Shown in pieces: positions 1,304 through 39,205 of a stretch of 40,119 nt of DNA. A program made the translations under genes and the position numbers. Below the pieces are notes generated by a model. That model saw only the letters and a program-made list of their open reading frames with translations. It did no database searches and had not been told where the DNA came from. Numbering within the stretch: the stretch's first letter is position 1; each line of letters begins with the position of its first letter. Source of the stretch: a virus; the IMG/VR virus record IMGVR_UViG_3300044644_000432, positions 1 through 40,119 of that record; one strand, 5' to 3'.

Positions 1304-2902
1304 ATGACATACGGCCCTGTCAAAACAGTTGCGGATCCTTGTCAAGCGTATGAGTATCTTAAACCTTCTTGGGATAAGGCACGTGCTGTGTGCAATGGGG
1401 AACGTACTGTAAAGGAACTTGATCAACATATCGATCTAATTAGGTTTAACAATCTACTAATTCCTTTCTCAACTACTATGAGCCAAGCTCAATATGATTT
1501 TTATAAATCAGAAGCAGAACTTCCAGGTATTACAGCGCAATTTGCTAAAATGCTTGTGGGCGGTTTATTAAGAAAAGCTCCTGAATTAACTTTACCTGAC
1601 AGTGTGCCTGATGACGCTAAAGATTGGCTTATTAACAATATTGGACGTGATGATTCTACTTTAATAGCATTTCTAGATGAACTTTTGTGGGAAGAGATTC
1701 AAACATCGCGTGCGTGGGTATTTGTAGATTATCCAAATGTTAGTAATGCAGATGCACTAGATAAAGAAGAGAGAGATATGATTAAACCATATCCTATCTT
1801 ACAAAAAGCTGAAACAATTGTAAACTGGGCTACTGAAACAAATATTTTTGGTAAAACTGTTCTTAAGCGTGTAATTGTAAAAGGCTATTCTGAAGATTAT
1901 TCTAACAATGAGTTTCATGCGTTAAGAGTGCCAACAGTTTGGGTGCATGAGTTAAACGAGGCTGGCAACTACCAAGTTAGAGTCTATCAAGGCACGACTA
2001 AGGATAATGGCGATCAGACATTAAAGTTAGGTGGTGTAGGTGAAAAAGCTAGTCAGCCGCTTCCATCAGGCTATTTTGAATTAATAGAAACGTATGATAA
2101 TATCTTAAATAATGGTGAGCCTCTAAAACATATTCCAGCGTGGCCTGTAAATGGGACGATAGAACCTATCATGCCTATATTGATGCCTATAGTTGATAAA
2201 GAAATTAGCCTATATAATAAAATTAGCAGACGTAATCATTTATTGTATGGGGCGGCAACTTATACTCCAGTTATTATGTCAGATATGTCTGATGAGCAAT
2301 TTGACGAAATCGTAGATGCTGGTTTAGGGTCTTGGATAAGATTACGCCAAGATGATAAAGCAGACGTCTTAAAAACTCCAACAGAAGCATTACAAGATAT
2401 GCAGAAAGCTATTGAAGCGTCTATTGACGAAATGGCTAAACTTGGTATCAGAATGCTTACAACTGAAAATGAACAATCAGGAGTTGCATTAGAAATTCGT
2501 AACGCAGCTCAAACAGCGCAATTAAGTGTATTAAGCACTAAAATTTCTAGCACACTAAAACAAGTAATATGCTTGATGATTAACTGGAGATACGGGTTAG
2601 ATATAGATTCTTGTGATATCGTATTTAATCTTTCAGCAGATTTTGACCCAGTGCCATTAGGTGCTGAATGGCTTAACGCTGTTACTCAATGGTATCAAGC
2701 CGGCTTATTGCCAAGAAGTGTTTGGCTTCAAATGTTAAAAGCTAATGATATTATAGATTCTGAGTATGATGATGAAACTGCACAACAAGAAGTTAACGCA
2801 GATCAGTTAATCATTCCTGCTGCTACTAAGTATAATGATCAATATGCTATGCAAACAGAAGCCGCAGCTGCCGGTGCTAAACCTAAACCTATTAAAGAAT
2901 AA
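1304..2902 (+). CDS. Portal protein, DUF4055 type
   Basis: This 532-residue protein resembles the DUF4055 group of phage portal proteins, which form a ring of about twelve subunits at one capsid vertex through which DNA is packaged and ejected and to which the neck binds. Supporting features are its length, its place between the lysis module and a MuF-type minor head gene, the N-terminal SWDKARAVCNGERTVK segment, and the central region with PAWPVNG, ISLYNKISRRNHLLYGAA and the long helical stretch from about residue 365 (ALQDMQKAIEASIDEMAKLG followed by TENEQSG) to an acidic C-terminal region. A terminase gene is not in the window and probably lies upstream of base 1. Confidence 0.85.
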   Translation: MTYGPVKTVADPCQAYEYLKPSWDKARAVCNGERTVKELDQHIDLIRFNNLLIPFSTTMSQAQYDFYKSEAELPGITAQFAKMLVGGLLRKAPELTLPDSVPDDAKDWLINNIGRDDSTLIAFLDELLWEEIQTSRAWVFVDYPNVSNADALDKEERDMIKPYPILQKAETIVNWATETNIFGKTVLKRVIVKGYSEDYSNNEFHALRVPTVWVHELNEAGNYQVRVYQGTTKDNGDQTLKLGGVGEKASQPLPSGYFELIETYDNILNNGEPLKHIPAWPVNGTIEPIMPILMPIVDKEISLYNKISRRNHLLYGAATYTPVIMSDMSDEQFDEIVDAGLGSWIRLRQDDKADVLKTPTEALQDMQKAIEASIDEMAKLGIRMLTTENEQSGVALEIRNAAQTAQLSVLSTKISSTLKQVICLMINWRYGLDIDSCDIVFNLSADFDPVPLGAEWLNAVTQWYQAGLLPRSVWLQMLKANDIIDSEYDDETAQQEVNADQLIIPAATKYNDQYAMQTEAAAAGAKPKPIKE

Positions 2903-7560: not shown

Positions 7561-7695
7561 ATGTCAGCAGAAATTAAAAAGTGTTCATGTCAACACGCTA
7601 ATCAAGACAATCTCCACGGTAAACAAATGCGTGTAATGAATCCAGATCAAAAGAAAGGTTTTACATGCACAGTATGTGGAGCAAAGCACAAATGA
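7561..7695 (+). CDS. Zinc-ribbon miniprotein
   Basis: This 44-residue protein has two cysteine clusters that could hold one zinc ion: C8-S-C10 and C36-T-V-C39, the latter in the pattern FTCTVCGAKHK. The QH..QD.LHGK.MRV.NP core between them matches a short zinc-ribbon type often found in phage structural operons. Its partner is unknown. The stop overlaps the next ATG (ATGA at 7692-7695), so it is probably co-translated with the Tad2-like gene. It was too short for a usual ORF cutoff but the cysteine pattern and spacing make it convincing. Confidence 0.75.
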   Translation: MSAEIKKCSCQHANQDNLHGKQMRVMNPDQKKGFTCTVCGAKHK

Positions 7696-7913
7696 GATTT
7701 AGTCACGCATTAGATATGATCATCGCTGGCCAAAAGCTAGCTCGTAGCGGTTGGAATGGAAAAGATATGTATATCAAACTAGTCAAAGCGCATGACTTTG
7801 AATTTTCTGAATTGAATTCTCACTTTGTCATTAAAAATGTCAAAAACTCTTTTGATACATGGGTTCCTTCAGTCTCTGATTTATTAGCAGAAGATTGGGT
7901 TTTGGTTAGCTAG
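7692..7913 (+). CDS. tad2: Tad2-like anti-Thoeris protein (DUF2829)
   Basis: This 73-residue protein has the hallmarks of DUF2829: an N-terminal MRFSHALDMIIAGQKLAR helix, the R18-SGWNGKDM motif followed by YIKLV, and the C-terminal TWVPSVSDLLAEDW with W57, D63 and A66-E-D-W69. Characterised DUF2829 proteins (Tad2) bind and sequester the cyclic ADP-ribose-type signal made by Thoeris defence; some family members also bind other signalling nucleotides. I chose the ATG at 7692, which overlaps the preceding TGA and puts the family's usual N-terminus first; a TTG 27 bases upstream only adds residues read from the zinc-ribbon gene. Function is inferred from family resemblance; binding-site residues were not verified. 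Confidence 0.85.
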   Translation: MRFSHALDMIIAGQKLARSGWNGKDMYIKLVKAHDFEFSELNSHFVIKNVKNSFDTWVPSVSDLLAEDWVLVS

Positions 7914-7915
7914 AC

Positions 7916-7934
7916 CCCGTTAAATTAACCCTAA
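7916..7934 (+). repeat. Direct repeat copy 1, CCCGTTAAATTAACCCTAA
   Basis: This 19-nt sequence recurs exactly at 8031-8049 and, with one mismatch over its first 17 bases, at 39162-39178. Its core GTTAA-A-TTAAC is a short palindrome. All three copies lie in intergenic control regions, suggesting a protein or polymerase recognition site. Confidence 0.85.
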
Positions 7935-8021: not shown

Positions 8022-8047
8022 TTAATAGAACCCGTTAAATTAACCCT
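8018..8047. repeat. Inverted repeat AGGGTTAAT / ATTAACCCT
   Basis: The 9-bp arms at 8018-8026 and 8039-8047 are perfect complements with 12 bases between. The right arm is inside direct repeat copy 2. It could be an operator or an extruded hairpin; it lacks a T-tract, so it is not an obvious terminator. Confidence 0.65.
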
Positions 8048-8075: not shown

Positions 8076-8088
8076 CAGATTGTATCTG
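8076..8088 (+). other. Short hairpin CAGAT-TGT-ATCTG
   Basis: A perfect 5-bp stem has a 3-nt loop, extendable by one G-T pair, 38 bases before the scaffold start codon. The geometry equals that known for N4 virion RNA polymerase promoters, but a hairpin of this size can occur by chance in AT-rich intergenic DNA. Confidence 0.35.
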
Positions 8089-8125
8089 TTCTATGTAACT
8101 GAGTTGTACTCAAAGGAAATTACCA

Positions 8126-8764
8126 ATGACCGAAAATGTCGAACAAGAAGAAACTAACAATCCTACTCCGCCTCCTGCTCCTTCCAATCCTCCTGTGGAT
8201 GATGTGGACTCGAAAATCCAGGAAGCTCTTAAACCTATTAAGTCCAAACTTGATAACGCTTATAAGGAACGTGACGACGCGTTAAAGAAAGCTGCAGAGT
8301 ACGAACAAAAAGAAAAAGAAGCTGAATTAAAAAGACTTCAAGAAGAAGGAAAACATAAAGAAGCTTATGAACTTCAGTTAGCGGAAGCTAATGCTAAGTT
8401 AGAAACGATAACAAAACGTAACATAGAACTTGCTAGGGACTTAGAAGTAAAATCTATTCTTAGTGGGTATACGTTTAGAAGCGATAAAGCAGCGGATATG
8501 GCATATATGGATGTGGCATCGCAACTTATACAAAATGAAAATGGAGTATGGGTGCATAAATCAGGAACTGATCTGAGAACCTTTATTAAACAATTTTCTG
8601 AAGACGATAATAATTCATTCTTATTCAAACCAAAAGTGTCGACAGGGGCAGGTCAAACAAGTTCAAGTGGCGCTTCACAAGATGATTCAAATAAATCACT
8701 ATTTCAATTATCACAAGATGAGGTGCTTAAACGTATTACGGAAGGCAAAATCCGTAGAAAATAA
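8126..8764 (+). CDS. Capsid scaffolding protein
   Basis: This 212-residue protein has the composition of a phage scaffold: a Pro/Asn-rich acidic N-terminus (NNPTPPPAPSNPPVDDVDSK), a long charged coiled coil at about residues 30-115 (KERDDALKKAAEYEQKEKEAE and so on), a more globular middle, and a basic C-terminal tail (KRITEGKIRRK) suited to binding the coat protein. It lies immediately upstream of the major capsid gene, the usual place. Scaffolds guide procapsid assembly and are then removed. AAAGGAAAT about 7 bases before the ATG supports the start. No protease domain is visible, so either a protease lies elsewhere or the scaffold leaves intact. Confidence 0.85.
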   Translation: MTENVEQEETNNPTPPPAPSNPPVDDVDSKIQEALKPIKSKLDNAYKERDDALKKAAEYEQKEKEAELKRLQEEGKHKEAYELQLAEANAKLETITKRNIELARDLEVKSILSGYTFRSDKAADMAYMDVASQLIQNENGVWVHKSGTDLRTFIKQFSEDDNNSFLFKPKVSTGAGQTSSSGASQDDSNKSLFQLSQDEVLKRITEGKIRRK

Positions 8765-8785: not shown

Positions 8786-10009
8786 ATGGGTGCTTCAGTT
8801 ACCACACTCCCTATTGGGCCTTCAGGCTTAACGAATAACTATGTATTACAAGAAGCGATTGGTGCCTATAGCGATGAAGCTTACACCAATGCAAAGAAAT
8901 TGTCTGGCACAGGCATTACTTCTTCTAATCCACAAATTGACACCAGCACAGAAACCTTTATTGGCCAAATGCGTTGGTTTAGACCATTGAATCCTACCAT
9001 TAACGTTGCGTCATTGACAGATGCTACTGATGGTACGAAAACAAACTATGATACTGACTACAGCACATATATTAAGACAGTCCGTACACACGGTGCTGAA
9101 AAAGTTAACATGCAACAAGTTGTTACACAACAAGATGGTTTAGCAAAAATTGGTCGTGACTTCGGTGAAACCCGCGCTCAAGACGAACACAATGCTATTC
9201 TTTCTGTGTTGAAAGGTGTAGGTGTTTCTGAACTATTAAATGGTGCTGCTACAGGCAGCGGTGCAACTGGGCTTGGTGGCCAAACTTTTGACAATGATCC
9301 AACTGATGAAAGATTTGGTTTCTATGTTGATTTAGGCTCAAACAAAGTTGTTACTGCAAATGGTGTTGCTCCTGGTGGCACCACAAACTATGCTTATCAA
9401 GGTGCTTCACGAGCTGAAGGTTTCTTGAATGCATTTGGTATGGCGTTTAAAGATTATGAACCAGAGTGGGCGTACTTAGTTGTATCCCCTGAAACTTTGG
9501 CTTCATTCCGTTCAGCTAACTTTGTTGATGAAACAACTATTGTTGATGGTAATGTTAATTTTAACACTATCTTTAATGGTAAATTCCGTTTGATCACTAC
9601 ACGTGCTTCACAATCATTATCTTCTGCTGAATTGAATAAAGTTAATGGTGGTGCTGGCATTGACGTAGTTGGTACTAAAACTTCTTTCATCGTATTGCCT
9701 GGTGCAATCGCTATGGAACAATTAGCTGTTCCTGATGCAACTGAAATCACACGCGATGGCAACAAATATAAAGGTGGTGGTACAACTTCTATCTGGAACC
9801 GTTGGGGTTATGTATTAGCACCTGCTGGTTACGATTGGAATGGTGCTAAAACCGCATTCCCATCTGATGCTGATTATATGGGTATTGTTGAAGGTGGCAC
9901 ATCTAAAGCACTTACAGCTGCGGCTGTTATTGCTAACGCTCGTGGCACATGGACACGTAAAACACAATCTGCATTATCATTAGGTATCTTACCTGTATTC
10001 CATTCTTAA
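8786..10009 (+). CDS. Major capsid protein
   Basis: This 407-residue protein is the shell subunit, expected to have the HK97 fold. Evidence is its place right after the scaffold gene, its length, a Gly/Thr/Asn-rich composition with few Cys, and typical segments such as TFIGQMRWFRPLNPTINVAS, KIGRDFGETRAQDEHNAIL and the C-terminal RWGYVLAPAGYDW. Codon use is richer in preferred GCT/GGT codons than in neighbouring genes, as expected for the most abundant virion protein. TAAGGAAAA upstream is a good ribosome site. No separate decoration protein is visible nearby. Confidence 0.9.
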   Translation: MGASVTTLPIGPSGLTNNYVLQEAIGAYSDEAYTNAKKLSGTGITSSNPQIDTSTETFIGQMRWFRPLNPTINVASLTDATDGTKTNYDTDYSTYIKTVRTHGAEKVNMQQVVTQQDGLAKIGRDFGETRAQDEHNAILSVLKGVGVSELLNGAATGSGATGLGGQTFDNDPTDERFGFYVDLGSNKVVTANGVAPGGTTNYAYQGASRAEGFLNAFGMAFKDYEPEWAYLVVSPETLASFRSANFVDETTIVDGNVNFNTIFNGKFRLITTRASQSLSSAELNKVNGGAGIDVVGTKTSFIVLPGAIAMEQLAVPDATEITRDGNKYKGGGTTSIWNRWGYVLAPAGYDWNGAKTAFPSDADYMGIVEGGTSKALTAAAVIANARGTWTRKTQSALSLGILPVFHS

Positions 10010-37076: not shown

Positions 37077-38282
37077 ATGCAAATAGGTATAATGTTTAAA
37101 GAAGACACGCCATCAGATGTTAGATACAGTTTGCTAAATGCAATTCAAGGGCGAGAGGATGAAATATTCAGTGAAACAGTTGTTGTAGTGTCTACACCTA
37201 TGGAAAATTTTACTGAAGTAGAGGAAATTCTCTTAAATAGCCCTTACGTTATAAGGATAGAACAACCAACTCTCTATAAGAATGCCCTTGTATCAGTTGA
37301 TCCTGGTTACACAGCCAGCCAATGGCATTTAAAATCAACGACAACTGCGGGTATTGGAGCAGATGTAGCTTGGGCAAATGGAAACGTAGGTTCAGACTCA
37401 ATATATGTAGGTGTAATTGACAGCGGATGTTTTTTGCATCCGGATCTGATAAAGAATTTGGGACAAGTGCCTAATGAATCTTTAGTCAGCGGAACTGATG
37501 GAAATGGTAATGGGAAAAAGAATGATTATTACGGATGGAATTTTGCCTGTAATAATAATGTTACATTTGATAGCCCTAAGTCCGGAAGTTCTAGTCAATT
37601 GCACGGAACTTACTGTTCAGGAATTATTGGCGCAGATGGTGCTAATGGCACAGGTGTTGCGGGAGTTTGTTGGAATATTCGTATTATTCAAGCAAACGTA
37701 GTTAAGCCTTATGGTACGGGGTTTAATAGTTTTGATTGCGCACTGGCAATTCGATACTTCAAAGAATTAAAAACGCTTGGCGTTAATGTTGTAGCAGTTA
37801 ATCTGTCATATGAAGGCTCTTCAAATTCTTTTGTAGAAGAGGCAGCAATGTTTGACGCTCAAGATATTTTATTTGTAGCAGCAGCAGGAAATAGTGGTCA
37901 AGATGTTGAGGCCACACCAGCGTACCCTGGAAGTTGTGTGTCAGAGAACCTTATAAATGTTGGTTCAACAAACGCAGCAGGGGCAATGTCAACGTTTTCA
38001 AACTATGGATGGAAATCTGTAGACTTGTTTGCGCCTGGAGAAAACATTTATACAACAACTGGCTATCGATCGGACGCAGATATGGTTTCATCCTTCACAA
38101 CAGCGAGTGGCACATCGTTTTCCGCGCCTTGCGTTACTGGAGCTATAGCTTTGTATAAAGCTAAGTATCCCGCAGCAACTGCTGCTCAGATTAAAGAGGC
38201 TATTCTTGCCAACGTTACCAAAGTTCCTGCTTTAACGAGTATGTGTGTATCGGGTGGAATTTTAAATGTAAGGAATTTTTAA
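37077..38282 (+). CDS. Subtilisin-like serine protease (S8) with N-terminal propeptide
   Basis: This 401-residue enzyme has the complete subtilase triad: D115 in VGVIDSG, H176 in LHGTYCSGIIG, S347 in SGTSFSAPCVTG, and the oxyanion asparagine N272 in AAAGNSG. Residues ~1-72 look like an inhibitor I9-type propeptide/chaperone, so the protein probably matures by self-cleavage. No signal peptide is present. It lies between tail fibre genes and a holin-like gene, so it may be virion-bound and digest host surface proteins, process tail proteins, or act in lysis. Motifs make the family certain; the substrate is unknown. Confidence 0.95.
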   Translation: MQIGIMFKEDTPSDVRYSLLNAIQGREDEIFSETVVVVSTPMENFTEVEEILLNSPYVIRIEQPTLYKNALVSVDPGYTASQWHLKSTTTAGIGADVAWANGNVGSDSIYVGVIDSGCFLHPDLIKNLGQVPNESLVSGTDGNGNGKKNDYYGWNFACNNNVTFDSPKSGSSSQLHGTYCSGIIGADGANGTGVAGVCWNIRIIQANVVKPYGTGFNSFDCALAIRYFKELKTLGVNVVAVNLSYEGSSNSFVEEAAMFDAQDILFVAAAGNSGQDVEATPAYPGSCVSENLINVGSTNAAGAMSTFSNYGWKSVDLFAPGENIYTTTGYRSDADMVSSFTTASGTSFSAPCVTGAIALYKAKYPAATAAQIKEAILANVTKVPALTSMCVSGGILNVRNF

Positions 38283-39161: not shown

Positions 39162-39205
39162 CCCGTTGAATTAACCCTTCAGACGTCCCCCTCAATTAAC
39201 CCCTA
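39162..39205 (+). repeat. Third copy of the CCCGTTRAATTAACCCT repeat plus a half copy
   Basis: CCCGTTGAATTAACCCT (39162-39178) differs by one base from the repeats at 7916 and 8031; as in copy 1, a C-run follows (39186-39191 region). A second partial unit, TCAATTAACCCCTA, lies at 39192-39205. The element marks the control region before the operon at 39320. Confidence 0.75.

Follow-up and report, generated by a model that had tools for sequence, protein, structure and literature searches.

Several Tad2 proteins of the PF11195 (DUF2829) family have been characterized structurally. ModTad2 from a Myroides odoratus prophage (88–89 aa; PDB 9eib, 8v3e) has His-ADPR (type II Thoeris) as its ligand, and Tad2 of phage SPO1 (gp34.65; PDB 8sme, 8smf, 8smg) has gcADPR (PMC13299392; the PDB titles agree). 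The gcADPR pocket of SPO1 Tad2 is formed by the β1–β2, β3–β4 and β4–α3 loops, strand β4 and helix α3, and the protein assembles into V-shaped dimers joined via α2 and β2 (review PMC12043709). These dimers make up a homotetramer. HgmTad2/AcrIIA7 (PDB 8kbi–8kbm) and SptTad2 (8wjd) are longer, 101–104 aa, and carry a cyclic-dinucleotide insertion; the binding of dinucleotides by Tad2 is attributed to this long β2–β5 segment (PMC12043709). In phage N4, the PF11195 domain of gp49 is fused to an N-terminal part. Its gene adjoins the virion RNA polymerase (vRNAP) gene and is convergent to it, shares its strand with the replication genes and directly follows the PF13876-like gp48.

The stretch of viral DNA analysed here, 40,119 nucleotides in all, is referred to as the window. 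It contains a short PF11195 gene that, like the one of N4, lies next to a polymerase gene. The features of this region and the states of the corresponding slot in related phages are listed in Table 1.

Table 1. Features around the Tad2-like gene of the window, and composition of the slot between the polymerase stop and the scaffold start in related loci
Feature	Position or loci	Strand	Details
Portal protein	1304..2902	+	phrog_145, 6.4e-60; same upstream gene run
MuF minor head protein fused to single-subunit RNA polymerase (MuF-RNAP), 1545 aa	2919..7556	+	PF04233, 2.1e-14; PF00940, 1.4e-10
44-aa Cys-rich (zinc-ribbon-like) ORF	7561..7695	+	No Pfam match; constant neighbour on the upstream side of the slot in the clade of the window
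Tad2-like (PF11195/DUF2829) gene, 73-aa product	7692..7913	+	Pfam, AlphaFold2, Foldseek
15-bp repeat CCGTTAAATTAACCC, copy 1	7917..7931	+	Directly 3' of the Tad2-like stop; promoter-like
15-bp repeat CCGTTAAATTAACCC, copy 2	8032..8046	+	Upstream of the scaffold gene
Hairpin 1 (CAGAT-TGT-ATCTG)	8076..8088	+	Scaffold gene leader; stem covaries between relatives
Hairpin 2 (TGAGT-TGT-ACTCA)	8100..8112	+	Just before the scaffold ribosome-binding site
Head scaffolding protein	8126..8764	+	phrog_206, 5.9e-9; downstream border of the slot
Major head protein	8786..10009	+	phrog_247, 1.7e-17
15-bp repeat CCGTTAAATTAACCC, one mismatch	39163–39177		
Slot: 44-aa ORF + Tad2-like allele A	Window, L002–L016		
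Slot: 44-aa ORF + Tad2-like allele B	L082–L084, L087, L088, L091, L092, L098, L136, L150		
Slot: 44-aa ORF + Tad2-like allele C	L085		
Slot: 44-aa ORF alone	L090, L099–L103, L108–L109		
Slot: extra HNH gene	L010, L085, L108		
Slot: extra PF13876 gene	L012–L016		
Slot: PF13876 + longer PF11195 protein	L135		
Slot: cassette absent	Most other (distant) relatives		

Family membership, predicted fold and pocket segments

The Tad2-like ORF encodes a protein of 73 aa, MRFSHALDMIIAGQKLARSGWNGKDMYIKLVKAHDFEFSELNSHFVIKNVKNSFDTWVPSVSDLLAEDWVLVS. Its match to PF11195 is far beyond chance (E = 1.4e-22); the score of 80.4 bits exceeds the curated 25-bit cut-off, and the profile is covered end to end (1–73 of 73), which places the protein in the family. 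The DUF2829 hallmarks claimed in the preliminary description are all present, namely R18, SGWNGKDM (residues 19–26) and LLAEDW (64–69). Comparison with the solved Tad2 proteins using phmmer gave E-values of 3.5e-12 for ModTad2, 2.6e-11 for SPO1 Tad2 and 4.4e-8 for AcrIIA7/HgmTad2. An alternative start at 7665, giving an 82-aa product, was rejected, as the methionine at 7692 is the shared alignment start of the allele A and allele B proteins.

An AlphaFold2 monomer model was calculated from an alignment of 55 sequences (the window and locus proteins) and reached a pLDDT of 92.8 and a pTM of 0.77. It comprises a helix (residues 3–11), strands 16–18, 27–31, 44–48 and 54–56, a helix (61–65) and a last strand (69–71). 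A structural comparison with Tad2 had been proposed in the preliminary description. In the Foldseek search of the PDB with this monomer model, all 24 hits at E ≤ 0.001 were Tad2/AcrIIA7 entries, the next hit having E = 1.6, and TM-scores normalized by query length reached 0.89, a value also reached with SPO1 Tad2. The model of the L083 allele, 51% identical to the window protein, shows the same order of elements (pLDDT 93.5). The Tad2 family and fold proposed earlier are thus borne out by the PF11195, phmmer and Foldseek matches: the product is a real and well-supported member of a family that is itself already known.

The protein has RxGWNGKxM and TWxPSVSDxLAEDW segments in common with ModTad2, and SGWNGK and WVPS..LAEDW with SPO1 Tad2. 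R18, G20, W21, N22, G23, W57, D63, D68 and W69 are invariant in the 55-sequence alignment. Together with K24 and S60, they are as in both SPO1 Tad2 and ModTad2, in a comparison made at the level of pocket segments. Of 21 conserved positions, one separates the window protein from SPO1 Tad2 and three separate it from ModTad2. By the reviewed description, the SGWNGK and WVPS-D-LAEDW pocket segments are kept, and the loss of ligand-binding residues, named earlier as a finding that would contradict a sponge, is not seen: in this segment-level comparison, residues are retained in most pocket-lining segments.

The window protein is nevertheless shorter than both proteins. It is without the middle segment of ModTad2, and its β2–β3 region falls about 12 residues short of that of SPO1 Tad2, which also has helix α2. 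No helix of four or more residues was found between strands 27–31 and 44–48 of the monomer model, where the window protein appears to be without helix α2, and its β3–β4 pocket loop may differ from that of SPO1 Tad2. These model-based features, along with the chromosomal genes of the same length described below, seem to weigh against the reading of the protein as a sponge.

The same region bears on the ligand class. A sponge of Tad2 fold could serve against another nucleotide signal instead of Thoeris, such as a CBASS dinucleotide or a cADPR isomer produced by a different TIR system, and the PDB entries with this fold do include complexes with 1',2'-cADPR, cGG, gcADPR and His-ADPR. We regard this as unlikely. 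HgmTad2 and SptTad2 have the family and fold in common with the window protein, but their long β2–β5 insertion is missing here, with only about 12 residues between β2 (27–31) and β3 (44–48), and SPO1 Tad2, likewise without it, does not bind 3'3'-cGAMP (PMC11722364). Other ADPR isomers would be compatible with the window protein.

An anti-CRISPR function is most improbable. AcrIIA7 also belongs to PF11195/DUF2829 (PMC6739104) and matches the window protein by sequence and fold, and database entries sometimes name PF11195 relatives 'anti-CRISPR'. However, homologues of AcrIIA7 accompany many CRISPR subtypes, with a single one found alongside II-A self-targeting (PMC6739104), and the AcrIIA7 entry has also been solved as HgmTad2 binding 1',2'-cADPR and cGG.

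Position in the family tree and chromosomal relatives

The phylogenetic tree of PF11195, built on 86 alignment columns, splits with 99/97 support into two sides. The window alleles lie on the ModTad2 side and SPO1 Tad2 lies on the other; the alleles of the window, L012, L083, L085 and L088 form one clade (starred, 97/82) within the former. Since the window alleles fall on the side of ModTad2, His-ADPR would be the likeliest ligand, ahead of gcADPR. Our confidence in this assignment is low because the inner forks of the ModTad2 side are weak.

The preliminary description treated PF11195 as a family that counters Thoeris. A sponge remains plausible and is the best explanation for the window protein, but the family is not purely anti-Thoeris. 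A 73–74-aa PF11195 gene also occurs in Sporosarcina, Lysinibacillus, Psychrobacillus and Bacillus niameyensis (L169–L181), where an SDR gene comes after it and a QueT gene stands next or nearly next (assigned by Pfam for the L171 pair and by sequence similarity for the remaining loci). This neighbourhood in Bacillota is apparently chromosomal and not of phage origin. The Sporosarcina and Lysinibacillus proteins resemble the window protein in length, in having no insertion and in identity (up to 44%), but four positions set the chromosomal forms apart: N22, K24, W57 and S60, common to the window protein, SPO1 Tad2 and ModTad2, are replaced by G or P, A, F and T, respectively. The PF11195 fold may therefore have other, cellular uses. 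Membership of PF11195 alone does not prove an anti-Thoeris function; given the chromosomal genes, it counts for less, and the residues at positions 22, 24, 57 and 60 count for more.

An accessory slot with exchanged and deleted alleles

The Tad2-like gene occupies an accessory slot between the MuF-RNAP gene and the scaffold and capsid genes; its ATG overlaps the TGA of the upstream 44-aa ORF (ATGA). A further 15 contigs (L002–L016) have the gene at this position, with 90–100% protein identity. The location in a head operon, taken previously as unusual for a counter-defence gene, is not exceptional. At other phage loci, 68 immediate neighbours of PF11195 genes gave about 16 matches to terminase, portal, major head, scaffold and other structural families (one neighbour can match more than one family), and N4 gp49 lies beside vRNAP.

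The product of the MuF-RNAP gene also matches PHROG head morphogenesis and RNA polymerase families. Its catalytic motifs are recognisable (DASSSGAQ at 1011, K1077..M1081..Y1085-G and HDA at 1441) by comparison with the motifs of T7 RNAP, and searching the PDB sequences with the polymerase portion returned no match. The gene is interrupted in several relatives (L003, L008, L088, L100, L113, L132), near residues 993, 1082–1112 and 1415, with introns or homing endonucleases as the probable cause. Where the gene is interrupted, EBPR siphovirus 1 carries an HNH gene; the window copy is uninterrupted. Genes of the PF13876 (gp49_66) type occur in 5 of 65 other phage loci, each time within 45 bp of the PF11195 ORF, and the two may constitute a conserved pair; such genes lie at L012:9497–9868, L135:8391–8717, L158:3381–3752 and L159:5318–5707. 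A subtilase gene (PF00082, 9.9e-39) was found among the tail-end genes of the window, at 37077–38282.

Relatives for the comparison of the slot were found via the major head protein, the interval being delimited by the MuF-RNAP stop and the scaffold start. The window and L083 are 91% identical in the scaffold and 92% in the major capsid protein (MCP), but only 54% in the Tad2-like gene (aligned codons). Conversely, the window and L012 are 90% identical in the Tad2-like gene and 70%, 70% and 75% identical in the 44-aa ORF, scaffold and MCP. Relatives thus include natural alleles only 51–54% identical next to neighbours of about 90% identity. The identity of the Tad2-like gene is uncoupled from that of its neighbours, which points to allele exchange between related phages. 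Close pairs within an allele have omega values of 0.02–0.14, indicative of purifying selection; within the allele of the window the values are 0.02–0.10. Diversifying selection was rejected; as no pair has omega above 0.36, exchange and not positive selection would explain the difference between alleles.

Clean deletions of the Tad2-like gene are present in L090 and L099–L103. The deletion allele looks like a loss because it retains a remnant of the end of allele B, TTCTTTACAGAGACCCCG. No second PF11195 copy was found in the 63–79-kb records behind L100, L101 and L103, which may be incomplete, and a compensating copy elsewhere in these genomes was rejected as an explanation. A linked NAD+-rescue gene as a general partner was rejected as well. 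PF04095 (nicotinamide/nicotinate phosphoribosyltransferase family) was found only in DSS3_VP1 and in the genome of L135 (G006:85131–85865), which has a PF11195 gene as well, and in none of the close relatives; the L135 phage may possibly combine NAD+ rescue with a sponge.

Constraint, exchange and occasional loss together are a better fit for an accessory counter-defence gene than for a structural one. The protein might instead have a non-defence role, either as a nucleotide-binding or regulatory protein for the head or RNA polymerase or as a leftover from a PF11195 protein of cellular metabolism. The chromosomal genes beside SDR and QueT in several Bacillota and the position in the head operon, adjoining a virion-type RNA polymerase, are in keeping with such a role. 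We nonetheless judge it decidedly unlikely: the chromosomal forms are changed at the four positions at which the window protein equals SPO1 Tad2 and ModTad2, and the gene is dispensable for the head and the polymerase, since related phages equipped with the same genes for both either do without it or have deleted it.

Expression and proposed function

The preliminary description suggested that a local promoter might allow early expression of the Tad2-like gene. No upstream promoter was found; sigma-70-like hits around the gene are at chance level, equal to the shuffled expectation, and the promoter-like phage repeats lie downstream of its stop codon. A local promoter is therefore not supported. 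The 15-bp repeat is present in 11 of 13 relative records, in 2–8 copies with at most one mismatch and on a single strand per record, and the reversed control pattern had no copies in these records. The carriers include L209, L210, L211, L008, L106–L152 and L212; the copies are mostly intergenic and often lie shortly upstream of gene starts. In relatives without the cassette, the repeat directly follows the polymerase stop codon. It is a candidate phage promoter element for a single-subunit RNA polymerase, and AATTAACCCT within it resembles the start of the T3 promoter. If the repeat is a promoter, the Tad2-like gene would be the final gene upstream of the promoter for scaffold and MCP. The relative with genome G001 carries a second gene for a single-subunit RNA polymerase, into which an HNH ORF is inserted, splitting it (L210:14080–17047, minus strand).

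The hairpins in the scaffold leader have invariant TGT loops, and 8 of 14 pairs show two-sided, pair-keeping changes among 13 relatives. No other closely spaced pair of TGT-loop hairpins was found in the window, and an Rfam search of the window gave no matches. The hairpins are possibly an RNA control element or a hairpin promoter. For the Tad2-like gene, the simpler reading would be that it is the last of the portal/MuF-RNAP run and is expressed at the time of structural genes.

Overall, the protein is probably a minimal anti-Thoeris sponge of the Tad2 type, with His-ADPR as its likeliest ligand, made with the portal/MuF-RNAP run from an exchanged allele; sponge activity as such is likely. 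In an infected cell, the TIR enzyme of the host's Thoeris system (ThsB) would make an ADP-ribose-derived signal, and the 73-aa protein, as an oligomer, would bind it in pockets formed by the SGWNGK (β1–β2) loop together with the WVPS-(D)xLxxDW segment, thereby keeping the Thoeris effector off. By tree position, the signal would be His-ADPR of type II Thoeris, less so gcADPR. Production would accompany that of the portal/MuF-RNAP run, adjoining the scaffold and capsid genes, and the allele could be swapped between related phages or lost. The basis of this explanation is the family, the fold, the kept pocket segments, the allele exchange, the purifying selection and the deletions observed here, from which we infer the ligand, oligomeric state, timing and anti-Thoeris effect.

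A variant of this explanation, which we consider quite unlikely, is that the proteins without α2 form a minimal Tad2 subfamily with another assembly and an ADPR-derived signal of its own, and that the recombining slot before the scaffold and capsid genes causes them to be made together with the capsid protein, a known trigger of Thoeris in staphylococci.

The evolutionary evidence is what is new here, and what most merits further attention is the exchange of alleles and the short form of the protein. If the proposed sponge function is true, Tad2 sponges extend to about 66–73 residues without the dimer helix, which would provide a test of the minimal sponge pocket. The alleles of 51–54% identity, the deletion alleles and the 90% identical allele in a distant backbone make up a set in which to ask whether the choice of allele tracks host TIR systems. 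In staphylococci, the major capsid protein sets off Thoeris (PMC12578639); a sponge produced at structural time, beside the capsid genes, would make sense and be well timed, a link that we infer.
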